This document shows positions 847 to 13,561 of a stretch of 28,588 bases of DNA, piece by piece (the stretch's first letter is position 1; each line of letters starts with the position of its first letter). A program made the translations under genes and the position numbers. This DNA comes from a virus, in the IMG/VR virus record IMGVR_UViG_3300033064_001951, positions 1 to 28,588 of that record. The stretch is one strand, 5' to 3'. Below the pieces are notes generated by a model. It made no database searches. It was not told the DNA's origin and saw only the letters and a list, made by a program, of their open reading frames with translations.

Positions 847-992
847 TGAAAACGAGAGGCTTACTTTACTACCTGGCCCGTCTCCTGGGCGATGTCAATG
901 CTGTCAAGAGCGGGTCGACCAAGAAGATGGGGAAGCGCGTGGTGAACAAGGTTGTAGGCAAAAAGGTTGTGCGAAAGCTCTGGTGGAGGTAA
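846..992 (+). CDS. Small basic phage protein, MKTRGLLYYLARLLGD type (48 aa)
   Basis: ATG 846 overlaps the preceding stop. The N-terminus MKTRGLLYYLARLLGDVNAV followed by a Lys/Arg-rich tail (GKRVVNKVVGKKVVRKLWWR) matches a recurrent small phage/bacterial protein pattern (xRxLYxLARxLGDxNAxxKG...KRxxRR). Amphipathic and basic. Function unknown; nucleic-acid or membrane binding would fit the composition. A longer overlapping frame from 836 is a shadow. Confidence 0.65.
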   Translation: MKTRGLLYYLARLLGDVNAVKSGSTKKMGKRVVNKVVGKKVVRKLWWR

Positions 993-994
993 CT

Positions 995-1177
995 ATGTGG
1001 TACATCCTGGGAGCGATAGTGTTGACCGTTTACGTGTTTATTTACGCTTGCTGCAAGGTAGCCAGCGATGCCGACGACTTCAGTGAGCGGGTGATGTATA
1101 AGATGATCATCAACGAGGCTCTGCATAGACTCTGCGATGATTGGGAGGCTAAGGGAGCGAGGATCAAAGGGAGGTGA
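995..1177 (+). CDS. Small membrane protein (60 aa)
   Basis: ATG 995 lies just after a strong GGTGGAGGT Shine-Dalgarno at 982-990. Residues ~3-20 (YILGAIVLTVYVFIYACC) form one transmembrane helix at the extreme N-terminus, followed by a ~40-residue charged cytoplasmic tail ending in RIKGR. An upstream in-frame GTG at 836 would overlap the well-supported gene at 846-992, so it was rejected as the start. Function unknown. Confidence 0.6.
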   Translation: MWYILGAIVLTVYVFIYACCKVASDADDFSERVMYKMIINEALHRLCDDWEAKGARIKGR

Positions 1178-1181
1178 TGAT

Positions 1182-1424
1182 ATGAATATCGAGTTGACTG
1201 GCTTTAATGGGCATGGGTGGCGCGTGTGCTACACTTGTCCGTGTGAGCATGAAGGGGAATGCTGGTTTGAATACGAGCGAAAAGAGGGCTATCTTCATTT
1301 CGGCACAGGACATGTAGTAACCGCAATGCAAGCCGTTATTACAGAACAAGAATACACTGTGGGAGCTGGGTGGTACTATGTGACTATCAGACCGCAGGAA
1401 TGTATTGACAAGCATGGCAAGTGA
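1182..1424 (+). CDS. Hypothetical protein (80 aa)
   Basis: Start ATG 1182 has a consensus GGGAGGTGAT Shine-Dalgarno immediately upstream. The product contains CYTCPCEHEGECWF (clustered cysteines at residues ~16-27) and a later WYYVTIRPQEC segment. The cysteines could bind metal, but they do not form a standard zinc-ribbon spacing. No family recognised. Confidence 0.6.
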   Translation: MNIELTGFNGHGWRVCYTCPCEHEGECWFEYERKEGYLHFGTGHVVTAMQAVITEQEYTVGAGWYYVTIRPQECIDKHGK

Positions 1425-1473
1425 TGCAGCCGATAACGCACACTGGGTTTATCCTTGACGGAGGAGGTGGCGA

Positions 1474-2289
1474 ATGACCAACCAAACTTTCCAAGATGTA
1501 AACATTCCAAGAATTGCACGCCAGCAGACTTTCTTTCTTAACGGCAAGATCGAGAAATCTATTGAGTGTCTGAAAGCGTATTGTCCAGAAGAAGGATATT
1601 ATTTATGTCATTCTTTTGGGAAAGACAGTTGCGTTCTCTATGCTTTAGCATTAATGGCTGGCGTAAAGTGCGATAGTCATTTTCACAGATCTACGGTAGA
1701 TCCTCCGGAGCTTTTATCTTTTGGCAGGGAGTTTTATTCAGACGTTACTATTGAAAAGCCGCCTGATTCGATGTTCAAGCTGATACGCAGGCAGGGGATT
1801 CCGCCAACCCGTAGAATGCGATACTGTTGTAGGATCTTCAAAGAGGAATACGGTGTTGGTCGAATTGTATTGACAGGGGTTCGTGCGCAGGAATCGAGAA
1901 CGCGGGCAGACAGGCAGATGGTAAGCCAATGTCCGAGAATGTCTAAGATTATTGTGAATCCTATTGTGGATTGGACGGAAATAGATGTGTGGGATTTCTT
2001 ATATGCTTATGAGGTTCCCTATTCTCCGTTATATGACGAGGGCTGTCGGCGACTGGGTTGTATTGGTTGTCCGGCAGCGTATTTCAGAACACGTATTGCC
2101 GAATTTGAACGATGGCCCAAATTTTTTCGAGCGTATCTTCGGTGTTTTGATCAACTGATAGAAGAAAAAGAGCGGACGTGGAAATCTGGTGAAGAGGTTA
2201 TGCGTTGGTGGATGGAAGAGTCCAGATGGAAAGCCCATGATCATAAACAATTTGAGTCTTTGCTAGACCTAACAGGCGGCGGGAAGTGA
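1474..2289 (+). CDS. PAPS reductase-like PP-loop enzyme with CC...CxxC Fe-S motif
   Basis: The 271-aa product belongs to the phosphoadenosine phosphosulfate reductase/adenine nucleotide alpha-hydrolase fold. The PP-loop SFGKDS is at residues 47-52, the TVDPPEL segment at 74-80 and GVRAQES at 135-141. Cysteines C118-C119 and C196-x-x-C199 match the CC...CxxC pattern that binds a [4Fe-4S] cluster in APS reductases and DndC-type proteins. Family members reduce activated sulfate or thiolate nucleic acids; in phages the substrate is usually unknown. A nearby methyltransferase gene begins with the identical 24 bases. Start ATG 1474 has GGAGGAGG at 1460-1467. Fold assignment is strong; the substrate is inference. 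Confidence 0.85.
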   Translation: MTNQTFQDVNIPRIARQQTFFLNGKIEKSIECLKAYCPEEGYYLCHSFGKDSCVLYALALMAGVKCDSHFHRSTVDPPELLSFGREFYSDVTIEKPPDSMFKLIRRQGIPPTRRMRYCCRIFKEEYGVGRIVLTGVRAQESRTRADRQMVSQCPRMSKIIVNPIVDWTEIDVWDFLYAYEVPYSPLYDEGCRRLGCIGCPAAYFRTRIAEFERWPKFFRAYLRCFDQLIEEKERTWKSGEEVMRWWMEESRWKAHDHKQFESLLDLTGGGK

Positions 2290-2334
2290 GGGAGATGTCA
2301 CGAATTTTGTCCTTGACGGGGGAGGTGATTGAGG

Positions 2335-2577
2335 GTGACAGACGTTTGGTGGGAAAAAGCCTGGCAGGAAACATGGCGTCCTTTGCTGTTTACAGACGGA
2401 AAACTTGACGAGGCAAAGATAGAGAACGAGATGCACGATCTGGTGTTCGTTCTACGCCAGGTAAGCGAGGTGTACGAGCACATTACGGGGGGAAAGTTGT
2501 CGAAGGAGATGTATTTTGCTGACACTATTATAGCAGAGCATAATAGTGTGATAGATAAGGCTGTTGATTCCCATTGA
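2335..2577 (+). CDS. Conserved phage protein of unknown function (80 aa)
   Basis: GTG 2335 is preferred over TTG 2329 because the GGGGGAGGTG Shine-Dalgarno ends at 2327. The pattern TDVWWEKAWQ...ENEMHDL...LRQVSEVYEHITGGKLSK...ADTII matches a protein seen in many phages, with no known function. Mostly helical and acidic. Its last codons overlap the -35 box of a strong promoter, so it closes one transcription unit. Confidence 0.75.
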   Translation: MTDVWWEKAWQETWRPLLFTDGKLDEAKIENEMHDLVFVLRQVSEVYEHITGGKLSKEMYFADTIIAEHNSVIDKAVDSH

Positions 2578-2602
2578 CTTTTGCGTCTAACTATGGTATA
2601 AT
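2574..2602 (+). promoter_or_regulatory. Strong sigma70 promoter with extended -10
   Basis: TTGACT (2574-2579), a 17-base spacer, then TATAAT (2597-2602) preceded by TGG (2594-2596), an extended -10 element. It sits at the end of the gene at 2335-2577 and points into the 147-base leader of the methyltransferase-like gene. Confidence 0.85.
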
Positions 2603-2749
2603 ATACTCGACACAGAAATTTAGATCTCTCCCCTTTGAGATCCAACTGCTGACGGGGATAAGCTCCCGAAGGCAAGCCTGAACGACTACCTGGGTGACGT
2701 ACTACATAGCGTCGCCTGGGCGGTCTGTTCGTTATGTAGAGGTAATTGT
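2603..2749 (+). ncRNA. Structured 5' leader of the methyltransferase-like gene
   Basis: Between the promoter and ATG 2750 lie several possible helices: GATCTC (2623-2628)/GAGATC (2637-2642); CGGG/CCCG near 2653-2669; and a longer imperfect hairpin built from GAAC, ACC and GTGACG pairing with CGTCGC, GGT and GTTC (about 2680-2733). Such a leader could attenuate or regulate the gene, or be a small RNA. The helices are seen by eye only; covariation is not tested. Confidence 0.4.
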
Positions 2750-3331
2750 ATGACCAACCAAACTTTCCAAGATAAAATAATACTAGATCTATGCGGTGGC
2801 ACAGGCGCGTGGAGCAAGCCATATAAGGACGCTGGCTATGATGTACGGCTCATTACCTTGCCAGAGTGTGACGTGCGCCTATATCAACCACCAGAGAATG
2901 TCTATGGAGTCCTTGCCGCGCCGCCATGCACCCATCTGGCGCGTAGCGGAGCGCGCTGGTGGAAAGCTAAAGGCAACTCAGCTCTCCTGGAAGCTATGGC
3001 TGTGGTAGATGCCTGCCTACGCATTGTAGTCGTAACACAGCCTGTGTGGTGGGCACTTGAAAACCCCATTGGAAGGATAAGCAAGTATCTTGGCAAACCA
3101 ACGCTTAAGTTTGACCCATACTTTTATGGAGATCCGTGGACGAAGCGGACCTGGGTATGGGGAAACTTTTGCCTTCCGAAAGAGAACAGAGTAAAGCCGA
3201 CTCAAGGCGACAGGACTTCCAGTATTGGGCCTACCAAGAGCTACTTTGACCGCTCAGCTCGCCGAAGTATCACACCGCCAGGTTTTGCTCAAGCGTTCTT
3301 TGAGGCTAACTCTATAGGCGGTGCGAAGTGA
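2750..3331 (+). CDS. Short C5-cytosine methyltransferase-like protein
   Basis: The 193-aa product has motif I DLCGGTGAWS (residues 13-22), the catalytic Pro-Cys motif APPC (57-60) and an ENP motif (104-106), as in DNA cytosine-5 methyltransferases. It is about half the usual length, with no room for a separate target-recognition domain. Many phages carry this compact type (pattern TKxTxxWGxF near 131-140), annotated as DNA cytosine methyltransferase or SAM-dependent methyltransferase. It may modify phage DNA or nucleotides. The first eight codons (MTNQTFQD) are identical at the DNA level to the PAPS-reductase-like gene. Start ATG 2750 has AGAGG upstream. Confidence 0.75.
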   Translation: MTNQTFQDKIILDLCGGTGAWSKPYKDAGYDVRLITLPECDVRLYQPPENVYGVLAAPPCTHLARSGARWWKAKGNSALLEAMAVVDACLRIVVVTQPVWWALENPIGRISKYLGKPTLKFDPYFYGDPWTKRTWVWGNFCLPKENRVKPTQGDRTSSIGPTKSYFDRSARRSITPPGFAQAFFEANSIGGAK

Positions 3332-4257
3332 CGCTAACTGATGTAATGCGTGGTATATATAAACAGCGAATTATCACGAAGTTACCAGAAGAACTCTTTA
3401 CTTTTTTGGTTGGGATCATACAAGAACATAACGAGGTCGGCTTCAAGGATGACTTCGATATGACCAATGGGCAGGCAATGGCGGCTGGCGGCGGAAATAA
3501 TAGGCAATCTGTCAAGAGGCGGCGTGATGCTTTGGCGAAGTTTAAGATAGATGGAACTCCTATACTCGTGGTTAAGGGCGGTAATAGGGGGAAGAACACT
3601 TGCTGTAAGTACCAAATTAACTATGATTTGATATGCCGCTACAACGGCATCTGGTCTAAGGAAAAGCAAGCACCGTCACAAAAATATAACAGTAGCCGTG
3701 ACGATGGTGATACGCGAGGCGTGACGATGGGTGACCGCGAGACGGACGCGAGGCGTGACTATCCTAAGACTAGATCAGAAGAGGTTAGAGAAGAAAATAA
3801 TAATTATGATATGGCTCCGCCTCCAGAAAACGAGGATGAGGAACGCCATGATAGAATAACTGATGCGCTCAAGAAGGCCATCGGTGGCGATCCTAATGCC
3901 ATCACTCTGGTATCCAACAACTATCAGCGCGAGGCTTTTGGTGCCTTGATGGAGTATCCAGATGAAAAGATACTCCATGTTATCCAGGTATCTGGCGAGA
4001 AGGGGAAGCTACATCAGGACAATGCGATAACGTACACAAAGAATGGCTTAGAGAAGTATGGTACTTGGTATGCCCAAGACGACGGCGGCAACGTCGGCGC
4101 GGGTCAAACCATGGGCGAGAGAGACAGGATTAAGGCGGCGGAGGTGTTGGCGCACATGAAGGAAGAACTGGCGGATCTGGAGAGTAGAACAACAGGTGAC
4201 TGGTCTGACGCCATAGCGGGGCAGAAGGTCGCCATAGCTGAAGCGGAGGTAGGATAG
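3328..4257 (+). CDS. Replication-type winged-helix protein
   Basis: 309 aa. GTG 3328 overlaps the previous stop; ATG 3346 is an alternative start. The N-terminal ~110 residues (ELFTFLVGIIQEHNE...GQAMAAGGGNNRQSVKRRRDAL...YQINYDLI) look like the winged-helix DNA-binding domain of phage replication initiators and DnaD/helicase-loader-like proteins. A charged low-complexity linker (~115-175) is followed by a helical C-terminal part. In phages this architecture usually recognises the origin or loads helicase. No catalytic motif seen. The C-terminal AIAEAEVG is shared with the next gene because of a duplicated junction. Confidence 0.55.
   Translation: MTLTDVMRGIYKQRIITKLPEELFTFLVGIIQEHNEVGFKDDFDMTNGQAMAAGGGNNRQSVKRRRDALAKFKIDGTPILVVKGGNRGKNTCCKYQINYDLICRYNGIWSKEKQAPSQKYNSSRDDGDTRGVTMGDRETDARRDYPKTRSEEVREENNNYDMAPPPENEDEERHDRITDALKKAIGGDPNAITLVSNNYQREAFGALMEYPDEKILHVIQVSGEKGKLHQDNAITYTKNGLEKYGTWYAQDDGGNVGAGQTMGERDRIKAAEVLAHMKEELADLESRTTGDWSDAIAGQKVAIAEAEVG
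4233..4255 (+). repeat. Gene-junction repeat, copy A
   Basis: The 23 bases 4233-4255 and 4533-4555 differ at one position. Each encodes the last residues of a gene (IAEAEVG) and contains the GCGGAGGT ribosome-binding site of the following gene. Copies are exactly 300 bases apart. Confidence 0.9.
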
Positions 4258-4557
4258 ATGAATGAGACGCGGACAGATGAAAGTAGAGCAAAATTGGTTA
4301 ATGCGTTTTATTACGCGCTTGGCGGGTATGCGGAACAGGAGGCCAAGAAAGACGATCAATGGCGAGATCAGAGTATTGGCGAATTATATGCACATTTGGC
4401 GCATGAACTCGAAGAGGTGCGGACGAATTTGAAGCGGAACGATCGTCTCACATATTTGCTTCATAATTGTGTAGACATGGTAGGGCTTTCGACGATCCTG
4501 CTTTCTACCGTTATGGAGATGGCCCAAATAAACATAGCCGAAGCGGAGGTAGGATGA
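4258..4557 (+). CDS. MazG-like small protein (99 aa)
   Basis: The pattern SIGELYAHLAHELEEVRTNL followed by HNCVDMVGLSTILL (residues ~41-80) resembles the E-x-x-E and D-containing helices of the MazG/dUTPase-type all-alpha NTP pyrophosphohydrolases, which in phages hydrolyse (p)ppGpp or non-canonical dNTPs. The protein is short and only one ExxE-like segment is clear, so activity is uncertain. The Shine-Dalgarno GCGGAGGT lies in the end of the previous gene. The gene is bracketed by two near-identical 23-base junctions exactly 300 bases apart. Confidence 0.5.
   Translation: MNETRTDESRAKLVNAFYYALGGYAEQEAKKDDQWRDQSIGELYAHLAHELEEVRTNLKRNDRLTYLLHNCVDMVGLSTILLSTVMEMAQINIAEAEVG
4533..4555 (+). repeat. 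Gene-junction repeat, copy B
   Basis: Second copy of the 23-base stop/ribosome-binding junction (22 of 23 bases identical to 4233-4255). It supplies the Shine-Dalgarno for the gene starting at 4558. Confidence 0.9.
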
Positions 4558-11533: not shown

Positions 11534-11562
11534 TTGACTTTCTTGTGGAACTGTGGTATTAT
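11534..11562 (+). promoter_or_regulatory. Sigma70 promoter with extended -10
   Basis: TTGACT (11534-11539), a 17-base spacer, then TATTAT (11557-11562) preceded by TGG. The -35, spacer length and TGG extension match the promoter at 2574. Both are followed by TTTAGATCTCT and a C-rich tract. Confidence 0.8.
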
Positions 11563-11584
11563 TTAGATCTCTACCCCTTGCCTT

Positions 11585-11610
11585 GAGCGGTCGGTGAAAG
11601 CCGGCCGTTC
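11585..11610 (+). other. 10-bp hairpin in the first noncoding transcript
   Basis: GAGCGGTCGG (11585-11594) pairs with CCGGCCGTTC (11601-11610) through 10 bp including two G-T pairs; the loop is TGAAAG. It lies about 15-40 bases into the transcript from the 11534 promoter. There is no T-run after it, so it is probably a structural or protective hairpin, not a terminator. Confidence 0.6.
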
Positions 11611-11633
11611 TGCGCGTCTATGCAAAATAAACT

Positions 11634-11663
11634 TTGACAAACGCTTGCCAGGTGTGGTAGAAT
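11634..11663 (+). promoter_or_regulatory. Second tandem sigma70 promoter
   Basis: TTGACA (11634-11639, perfect -35), an 18-base spacer, then TAGAAT (11658-11663) with TGG before it. Transcription would start near 11670, just before the structured region. Confidence 0.8.
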
Positions 11664-11669
11664 GAATAT

Positions 11670-12214
11670 AGCGATTGAATACCGAACTGGCCGCCACACA
11701 TAACCGATGGCAGAAGCACGGCGGCCAGGTTACTTTTCCAAATGGAATATTTCTTCGGGATAGCTCACGCAACAAGTGAGGCAATAGGCAGGCAGGCTGA
11801 TTGCTAGAGTAGTTGCAAAGTGAGCGATTAAGCTTTCAGTGACCATGCCGTCACTAGGAAGATACAAAAAGCAGTGGAATCCTGTCTCCCGAGGCACATA
11901 TATATCTAGTAACTTGAGCGGGCCGCGACTCCATCTCCCATAGCCGCACAACTTCGCGGCCCCCTCCCCTTCTTGTGGGGCGAGCGTACGCGACTGGATT
12001 TAAACCCAGTGGGGAAAAAACTCCAACGCCCCTACCTGAAGCCCAACAGGGCGGCCGGCGTTTAATCGCAACAGATGGCTTGCCGAACATGATGAGCATC
12101 TGCACGAAGTTTGGCTCTGGGTTGCCCGATTATATAGAGAAGACGAGAAGCATCCTGATAGTAGCAGGGGATATGCGTAACAGATGCCGCCCCCTGCGCT
12201 ATTGGGCTTTCTAA
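11670..12214 (+). ncRNA. Candidate large structured noncoding RNA (~545 nt)
   Basis: No credible gene lies here. Perfect or near-perfect inverted repeats follow each other: 11687-11695/11720-11728 (9 bp); 11763-11773/11812-11825 (11 bp with an AAA bulge); 11838-11843/11850-11855 (6 bp); 11920-11928/11954-11962 (9 bp); 11977-11982/12027-12032 (6 bp, enclosing two smaller stems); 12041-12044/12049-12052; 12072-12077/12097-12102; 12164-12170/12191-12197 (7 bp). A possible closing helix pairs 11668-11673 with 12197-12202. Size, strong promoter, phage context and an adjacent tRNA-like element resemble the GOLLD and ROOL ornate RNAs, but identity is not established. The absence of a terminator before the tRNA-like element suggests 3' processing there. 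Confidence 0.6.
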
Positions 12215-12292
12215 TGCGGAGGATCGTTTAATGGTAAGACGAGCGACTTTGGGGTCGCTTTATACGGCGTTCGATTCGCCGTTCCTCACGCA
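12215..12292 (+). tRNA. tRNA-like cloverleaf, non-canonical (Gln UUG or Pro UGG reading)
   Basis: D arm GTTT/AGAC with AATGGTA loop (12226-12240), anticodon arm AGCGA/TCGCT (12242-12259), T arm CGGCG/CGCCG with TTCGATT loop (12265-12281) and an acceptor-like pairing TGCGGAGGA/TCCTC-A-CGCA. The loop between AGCGA and TCGCT is CTTTGGGG, 8 bases instead of 7; the acceptor has a bulged A and an extra T. Read from C32 the anticodon is TTG (Gln); read one base later it is TGG (Pro). CCA is not encoded. It is either a decayed tRNA, an unusual phage tRNA or a tRNA-like 3' domain of the preceding RNA. Confidence 0.5.
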
Positions 12293-12310
12293 TTTCCCCC
12301 AGAGGTGTTT

Positions 12311-13561
12311 ATGGAAGCGCAACCTACACCTGACCTCGAAATCGCGGAGCTGCACACACAGAGACTCCCGTTGTCCGAAGTAACCGCTCACCCGCAAAAC
12401 CCCAGATCACACAGCGATAGACAGATCAAGGAACTACAGGCAAGCCTGACCGAGCATGGCTACGCCGCGGGCTCTATGACTGTGCAGCGCTCAACCATGC
12501 GGCTGGTCAAAGGACACGGCGTCTACGAGGCACTCTGCGGCATAGGCTGTGTCGAGGCAGACTTCGTGGTCATGGATATGAGCGACGACGAGGCTCTGTT
12601 GTTCCTTGCCAGGGATAACCGTATGAGCGACTTATCCTCATTCGATGTGCCTAAGCTGAAAGCGATTACGGTGGAATTGAAGAAGATTAACGTGCCATTG
12701 GAGCGCATCGGATTCAATGCGGGCGAACTCAAGTCGCTGGAATCCGACTGGGCAAAGAGCGAAGCTGATAACAGGGTGGTAGTTGAAGACGACCCGCCAG
12801 AGGTAGCTGAAGGCGAACCTATCACGCAGACTGGCGACCTGTGGCACTTGGGCAAGCATCGTGTGCTGTGTGCGGATTCGACCTGCGCTGAGGACGTCGA
12901 GCGGGTTATGGGTGGAGAGAAGGCTGATATGGTGTTTACTGACCCGCCTTATGGCATGGGAAAAGATTTCGAGAACGATGATATTTCCGATCCGCGAGAG
13001 TTCCATTCTGCATGGATGGCCAGTTGTCCATCATCTGCGGGATATTTAATATGGTATGATCCAAAGAATCTATCTGATGTTATAGTTCCCGCCGAGAAGC
13101 AATGGGGACACATGATTGACTATCTGCATTTATACAAGCCGAACGATGTGGCCTTTCCCCGACAATCATGGATTCGGATTTCCGAATCCATGATTGTGTT
13201 TGGAGTACCTGAATACATTGAGGTCAAGCCATATGCTCATGACACCTACGTCTGGAATCACGAAGGCAAGGACAAGAGCTTCTACCATCCAACAGTAAAG
13301 CCTATGACGGTTGTGTGTGATGTAATGAGCCGATTCGCGGCAGATTTGCTCTTCGACCCCTTCCTCGGCTCAGGCACGACGCTCATAGCCGCTGACCAGC
13401 TTGACAGGGTATGCTATGGAGTTGAGATAGCACCGAAGTACTGCGACGTGATAGCGAAGCGATACATCAAGCACAGGGAGTCATCCGACGATGTGTGGCT
13501 TGAGCGGGGAACTGACAGGATAACATGGGAGCAGATAAGCAGGAAGGTCAAAGTGATTTGA
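12311..13561 (+). CDS. ParB-domain / DNA N6-N4 methyltransferase fusion (416 aa)
   Basis: Residues ~18-110 form a ParB/sulfiredoxin-like domain (AHPQNPRSH at 26-34, GHGVYEAL at 69-75). The methyltransferase domain follows: catalytic DPPY at 211-214 comes before the SAM motif FDPFLGSGTT at 348-357, the order of beta-class N6-adenine or N4-cytosine enzymes, with HPTVKP at 326-331. It should methylate phage DNA against host restriction, or serve as an orphan regulator. GAGGTG at 12302-12307 favours ATG 12311 over GTG 12305. A 36-base perfect palindrome lies inside the coding sequence (residues ~284-296). Confidence 0.9.
   Translation: MEAQPTPDLEIAELHTQRLPLSEVTAHPQNPRSHSDRQIKELQASLTEHGYAAGSMTVQRSTMRLVKGHGVYEALCGIGCVEADFVVMDMSDDEALLFLARDNRMSDLSSFDVPKLKAITVELKKINVPLERIGFNAGELKSLESDWAKSEADNRVVVEDDPPEVAEGEPITQTGDLWHLGKHRVLCADSTCAEDVERVMGGEKADMVFTDPPYGMGKDFENDDISDPREFHSAWMASCPSSAGYLIWYDPKNLSDVIVPAEKQWGHMIDYLHLYKPNDVAFPRQSWIRISESMIVFGVPEYIEVKPYAHDTYVWNHEGKDKSFYHPTVKPMTVVCDVMSRFAADLLFDPFLGSGTTLIAADQLDRVCYGVEIAPKYCDVIAKRYIKHRESSDDVWLERGTDRITWEQISRKVKVI
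13162..13197 (+). repeat. Perfect 17-bp inverted repeat within the methyltransferase gene
   Basis: ACAATCATGGATTCGGA (13162-13178) is followed after TT by its exact reverse complement (13181-13197). As RNA this is a 16-bp stem with a 4-base loop. It codes for SWIRISESMIV, which fits the family, so the palindrome is embedded in a functional frame. Confidence 0.95.

Follow-up and report, generated by a model that had tools for sequence, protein, structure and literature searches.

A new family of small RNA hairpins, in which an invariant loop is presented on stems rebuilt from copy to copy, is well supported by the comparison of eight copies, one of which lies at positions 11916-11966 of the window, that is, the whole 28,588-base stretch of virus record IMGVR_UViG_3300033064_001951. 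The region around this copy (11634-12214) is a mosaic RNA leader, with the portable hairpin cassette inside and a tRNA-Pro-like element at its end. An earlier note on this DNA had proposed one large ornate noncoding RNA here. A structured phage RNA led by a promoter was confirmed, whereas a single conserved large RNA was not: no homologue of the entire 545 nt was found, and recurrence was limited to the 51-nt hairpin. Judged from its sequence, the window appears to carry a member of a new small hairpin family, embedded in a larger RNA that is unique so far.

The record is a fragment of a tailed phage with genes for an amidase, a ParB-like/DNA methyltransferase, the terminase, the portal and the head. 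The RNA region lies immediately upstream of the methyltransferase-terminase-portal series (Table 1). It holds no credible gene, as had been claimed; open reading frames within 11634-12214 reach at most 83 amino acids and have no Pfam match. No terminator-like site was found in the window between the RNA and the methyltransferase gene, so that the RNA would be the physical leader of the methyltransferase operon unless it is processed. Apart from this region, a phosphoadenosine phosphosulfate reductase-like gene (PHROG 424) at 1474-2289 might be an auxiliary metabolic or defence-related gene.

Table 1. Positions of the features in and around the RNA leader of the window.
Feature	Position	Strand	Remarks
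First sigma70-type promoter	11534-11562	+	TTGACT-17-TATTAT, extended -10
Short upstream hairpin RNA, GAAA loop	11567-11633	+	GCGGTCGGT-GAAA-GCCGGCCGT; fold z -3.1
Second promoter	11634-11663	+	TTGACA (11634-11639), 18-nt spacer, TAGAAT (11658-11663); TG before -10 (extended -10); 11/12
Helix P1, 5' strand	11671-11684	+	GCGATTGAATACCG; pair probability 0.91-0.99 with 12056-12069, one mismatch excepted
9-bp hairpin, 24-nt loop	11687-11728	+	helix 11687-11695/11720-11728
Conserved hairpin	11916-11966	+	stem 11920-11928/11954-11962; extension 11916-11918/11964-11966; open 25-nt loop 11929-11953
Conserved loop core, 23 nt	11930-11952	+	TCCATCTCCCATAGCCGCACAAC; predicted unpaired, p 0.75-1.0
Helix P1, 3' strand	12056-12069	+	CGGCGTTTAATCGC; closes ~400-nt domain
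3' hairpin, second AACAGATG in loop	12160-12200	+	pair probabilities mostly 0.87-1.0
AATGCG, lengthening the tRNA-like acceptor stem	12213-12218	+	pairs with CGCATT 12289-12294; z -2.6
tRNA-Pro(UGG)-like element	12219-12288	+	CCA not encoded; ARAGORN; Rfam tRNA 30.7 bits (cut-off 29)
ParB-like/N6-N4 DNA methyltransferase gene	12305-13561	+	first gene past the RNA; ATG at 12311; followed by terminase and portal

The sequence features quoted in the earlier note were all found in place when checked base by base. Among them, the sigma70 promoter ahead of the region is the second of two, and transcription is inferred from it to start near 11670. A similar tandem pair of promoters, with a hairpin RNA after each promoter, is found in two of the phages that carry the conserved hairpin (L006 and L010). 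In addition, the unit formed by the first promoter and the short hairpin at 11567-11633 has a look-alike in L010 at 5344-5250 on the minus strand; the L010 version ends like a terminator.

Folding of 11667-12214 gave -197 kcal/mol, lower than all of 100 dinucleotide shuffles (z -4.0), in agreement with the expectation of the earlier note. This region also had the lowest z among 53 tiles of the contig (-4.3, against -3.2 for the runner-up and a tile mean of -0.24). The reverse complement showed no excess (z -0.8); since the opposite strand folds ordinarily, an RNA of the plus strand is favoured. These predictions support the view that 11634-12214 encodes a structured RNA. The best-supported domain is 11667-12070 (z -5.1), in which helix P1 is predicted to close the ~400 nt at the 5' end of the leader into a self-contained fold. 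Both of the 9-bp helices pointed out before, with loops of 24 and 25 nt, are present. No homologue was found for the loop of the first one (11687-11728), which is absent from IMG/VR; the second one is the conserved hairpin.

On the other hand, 12070-12214 alone did not fold significantly (z -1.3). Two pairings had been proposed in this part, namely competition of the two AACAGATG copies (12070 and 12179) for CATCTG at 12097-12102 and a pseudoknot between GCATC at 12150 and GATGC at 12183. The positions hold in both cases, but the pairings are not borne out: they fall in the weakest-folding part and have no homologue support. No homologue of the 3' hairpin was found. A possible homology of the 3' part to the related phage L003, with GCARCAGATG and ATCCTGAT in common, was not significant. 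A degenerate second tRNA at 11757-11890 was considered as well and rejected, as it gave no tRNA score; this segment has tRNA-like ends (TCGGGATAGCTCA ... GAATCCTGTCTCCCGA) with a complementary acceptor, and its interior is unrelated.

The tRNA-like neighbour described previously was found again at 12219-12288 and is an ordinary tRNA. ARAGORN did not name its isotype; the loop TTTGGGG reads UGG, which corresponds to Pro. It should be mentioned that this element is flanked by two complementary arms of 12 nt, GGGGATATGCGT (12167-12178) and ACGCATTTCCCC (12288-12299), which stop just upstream of the Shine-Dalgarno sequence of the methyltransferase gene. Their pairing would preclude the 3' hairpin as well as the extension of the acceptor stem, and might constitute a switch.

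The conserved hairpin was recognized by comparison with a related phage, L003, which was found via its methyltransferase and has an identical gene order and a terminase of 74% identity. Its intergenic region and that of the window have ATCTCCCATAGCCGCACAA in common, placed between arms that differ but are complementary. Exact scans of IMG/VR and 84,980 species genomes showed that the loop core UCCAUCUCCCAUAGCCGCACAAC recurs in four further phage genomes and twice in one Poribacteria MAG. There are thus eight distinct copies: the window, L003, L006, L010, two in tandem in L008, and two in the Poribacteria MAG (L014 and L019); the L003 sequence is repeated identically in L004, L009 and L011. No copy was found in 50,697 GenBank phages or in PLSDB. 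The 17-mer at 11933-11949 is invariant in all eight copies. The loop is C-rich, with only two G residues, and contains UCUCCC.

In contrast to the fixed loop, the stem varies in sequence and is maintained in pairing. Over the eight copies, 70 of the 72 arm positions are paired although the mean arm identity is 41%, and all nine stem pairs vary, with at least two standard pair types per position. When the 3' arms were reshuffled among the copies, 46 positions were paired on average and 70 were reached in one of 20,000 permutations; this value is to be read with the facts that the arms were picked after the pairing had been seen, that the copies number only eight, and that L014 and L019 are paralogues sharing the same inner 5' arm. 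The 17-mer was also found at 14 further sites, mostly within reading frames, which served as a control and had no flanking helix. Their helix scores were 19 or less, compared with 31-39 for the hairpin copies and a 99th percentile of 20 for random sites. The hairpin copies are predicted to fold with the loop wholly open. A covariance model (R2), trained on four of the eight copies that it scores, gave 40-70 bits for the eight (47 for the window hairpin) and 28 or less for everything else. The covariation among homologues that the earlier note had named as a test is present in the 51-nt hairpin; the rest of the RNA in the window has no detected relative.

A scan tolerating changes at three loop positions gave no additional hairpin, which suggests that the loop itself is strongly constrained. 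Further matches of R2 in Poribacteria (18-27 bits) look like chance; several of them are antisense to WD40 repeats, as VRLWEM is what the loop complement encodes. A further match was met at 39.3 kb of the L003 phage; it is antisense within a tail-protein-like gene and was also discarded. The idea that the opposite strand codes for protein (VVRLWEME) was rejected, since the codons within the loop never vary whereas the stems do. The family appears to be undescribed in Rfam 15 (subscription literature lay outside the search). The hairpin would be a small RNA element not described before, and its loop probably holds on to a partner.

The copies occur in different settings, and the hairpin seems to be a module used in several of them. 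In L019, the stem is separated by 6 nt from the end of a promoter (TTGACT-17-TATAAT), and the hairpin is followed by a run of seven T, so that this locus appears to be a minimal sRNA gene consisting of promoter, hairpin and U-tract. The other Poribacteria copy, L014, is also followed by a T-rich tract. The promoters of L006 and L010 (10/12 and 11/12) lie 24-25 nt upstream of the hairpin on the same strand. In L010, the hairpin is located directly before the 24 bases, CCCCAGAGGTGTTTATGGAAGCGC, that also open the methyltransferase gene of the window. The two copies in L008 stand in tandem within an array of tRNAs and Y RNA-like elements, and this phage also encodes a TROVE/Ro60 protein. The copy of the window is embedded in the larger fold at a distance of ~250 nt from its promoter, which speaks against a hairpin acting in trans.

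These settings bear on whether the hairpin serves as a cis-acting leader, which would influence antitermination, stability or translation of its own transcript in the late operon of methyltransferase and terminase. Three phages (the window, L003 and L010) have it between a promoter and the genes for methyltransferase or terminase; this location, the junction with CCCCAGAGGTGTTTATGGAAGCGC in L010, and the fact that no terminator separates the RNA of the window from the gene are all in accord with such a role. However, the T-rich tract right after both Poribacteria copies means that their transcripts would hold no gene, the L008 copies lie in an RNA array, and the downstream gene in L006 is unrelated. 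This explanation is regarded as unlikely. The hairpin might instead act as single-stranded DNA, at a nicking, recombination or replication site. A conserved loop on a free stem is also seen in hairpin origins, and the rare and scattered distribution would fit, but the same-strand promoters just upstream, the T-tracts just downstream in several copies, and the strand asymmetry of the fold around the hairpin make this the least probable of the explanations considered.

Several other features were observed in the carrier genomes and in the phage L002. The array in L008 (IMGVR_UViG_3300009034_002981, 900-4400, minus strand) comprises about a dozen Y RNA-like elements, which are matches to the YrlA and nematode sbRNA models, together with tRNAs; several of the Y RNA-like stems enclose tRNA halves in swapped order, the 3' half before the 5' half. 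In L006 (10362-10300) and L010 (5690-5600), both on the minus strand, a large hairpin is present in the leaders of related genes for RHYAF.P.TTL... proteins. The 3' ends of its loops (CTCTCATAG and CCGTTGAG) are complementary to the bases before the Shine-Dalgarno sequence (CTATGAGAG and CTCAACG), so that control by a pseudoknot is possible. A noncoding motif, GGTTTAGCGGCCAGNTGNAGAGCAAGGG, is common to L002 (1606-1633, plus strand) and L006 (10365-10392, minus strand) and is found in no other IMG/VR phage. L002 also has a tRNA-Trp-like sequence at 1455-1523, with CCA and a short D-arm, which ARAGORN missed.

Rfam scans of the region, even at E values up to 5, gave only tRNA matches; group I and II introns and all remaining Rfam families were thereby dismissed. 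The GOLLD (RF02032) model found nothing up to E=10 in the window phage or its relatives. The same was true of the ROOL (RF03087) model, which found nothing in the control genomes either and so had no positive control. Membership in these families, which the earlier note had left undecided, is hence not upheld. GOLLD members are often longer than 800 nt with a conserved 3' half, and both GOLLD and ROOL assemble into RNA-only cages or oligomers. The window RNA resembles ROOL in being phage-borne, near tRNAs and of comparable length. It shares with GOLLD, a large structured RNA of phages found near tRNA (PMC12286853), the phage location beside a tRNA, but is only 400-545 nt long, and no conserved 3' region was found in it. 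These likenesses, together with the strong strand-specific fold, might suggest a new large ornate RNA that forms a cage or oligomer, with the conserved loop as a kissing loop. This is very unlikely: there is neither a GOLLD or ROOL score nor a homologue of the whole RNA, the hairpin alone forms an RNA gene of ~60 nt in Poribacteria, and the central 13 loop nucleotides have no near-complement elsewhere in their own phage, which argues against an ordinary kissing loop. The window RNA is neither a divergent GOLLD or ROOL nor, as far as the present data go, a single new class of large RNA.

Among smaller RNAs, skipping-rope (RF02924) consists of a hairpin whose large terminal loop is conserved. 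It is likewise a small RNA motif associated with phages; when all carriers were tested, it gave no phage match, and the best Poribacteria score was 20.8 bits against a cut-off of 36.7, away from the hairpin. Y RNA and YrlA, the RNAs of Ro60 RNPs, occur with the two hairpin copies in the L008 array, near tRNA-like parts, but the window has no Y RNA match and the hairpin, by eye, no Ro-binding stem. A closer parallel to the loop is seen in the UCCC-loop sRNAs (LhrC, RsaE and FsrA), which have a G-poor, open CUCCC/UCCC loop suited to G-rich mRNA sites and are multicopy in some genomes (PMC4132741). The window loop is similarly C-rich and predicted to be unpaired, with UCUCCC in a G-poor RNA. A promoter and terminator of its own are present in L019, while the window has a promoter and no terminator. 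It differs from these sRNAs in that at least 17 loop nucleotides are invariant, the stem sequence is not conserved, and the carriers are mostly phages.

Since the stem is exchangeable and the loop is fixed and predicted to be open, it is the loop sequence that seems to be recognized. In the model that we prefer, with a probability of about 0.38, the stem would be a scaffold and the loop would pair in trans as a single-stranded recognition sequence. Base pairing is preferred because the loop is C-rich and G-poor with UCUCCC, and because a stand-alone gene exists. Transcription from the second promoter would yield the noncoding leader, in which the hairpin presents its open 25-nt loop. The loop would then seize a complementary target, as the UCCC/CUCCC-loop sRNAs do at G-rich Shine-Dalgarno regions. 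The phage hairpin would be produced as part of the leader that precedes methyltransferase and terminase, and might be released from the mRNA via tRNA processing at 12219-12288. In Poribacteria, the L019 copy would be a stand-alone sRNA of ~60 nt terminated by its own U-tract. The L008 copies, being in an RNA array, are better explained by a free RNA than by the leader of an mRNA.

Searches for a pairing partner gave the following results. None of the phages has a second complement to the loop within one mismatch of 13 nt, and the counts of loop complements in the Poribacteria genome were barely above the control. Pairing to the 43 translation starts of the window phage was no better than with shuffled loops (p 0.14), and no pairing was found in E. 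coli rRNA. The loop was also compared with the 3' ends of tRNAs and tested for pairing with 22 tRNAs; both ideas were rejected, since shuffled loops did as well. Seed pairing to mRNAs that change does not usually keep as many as 17 loop bases invariant in unrelated genomes; a partner that is itself conserved, be it a protein or an RNA, would fit just as well.

A protein might accordingly be the partner, in which case the loop would be a binding site for a conserved host or phage protein and the hairpin a decoy or an RNP scaffold. Loops recognized by proteins are classically fixed while their stems are free, and the near-total invariance seen here conforms to this picture. Moreover, the two copies beside Y RNAs in L008, a phage that also has a Ro60/TROVE gene, indicate that at least one carrier invests in RNPs. 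However, the carriers are not known to have any RNA-binding protein in common; TROVE, the sole one tested, is present only in the L008 phage, and a single-stranded site of 20 nt is long for one protein. Taken by itself this explanation is somewhat unlikely, but a protein partner is nearly as likely as trans base pairing.

Whether by base pairing, as we prefer, or by protein binding, the fixed 23-nt open loop may tentatively be regarded as a portable recognition cassette, which can be placed on any stem and in various RNAs and with which unrelated phages and a bacterium would address one conserved cellular partner. The 400-nt phage leader, the Y RNA/tRNA array and the stand-alone sRNAs are the settings behind this reading. 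They also give reason for caution, in that an intergenic RNA of a phage may not be one ornate molecule; here, a small portable module lies within a larger fold. It is uncommon for a long loop to be conserved letter for letter on a free stem, and such conservation is a sign of one conserved partner. As phages and a bacterium have the identical loop, this partner is probably a basic component of the host, and its identity might bring to light a contact between phage and host that is new, or a class of regulatory RNA.
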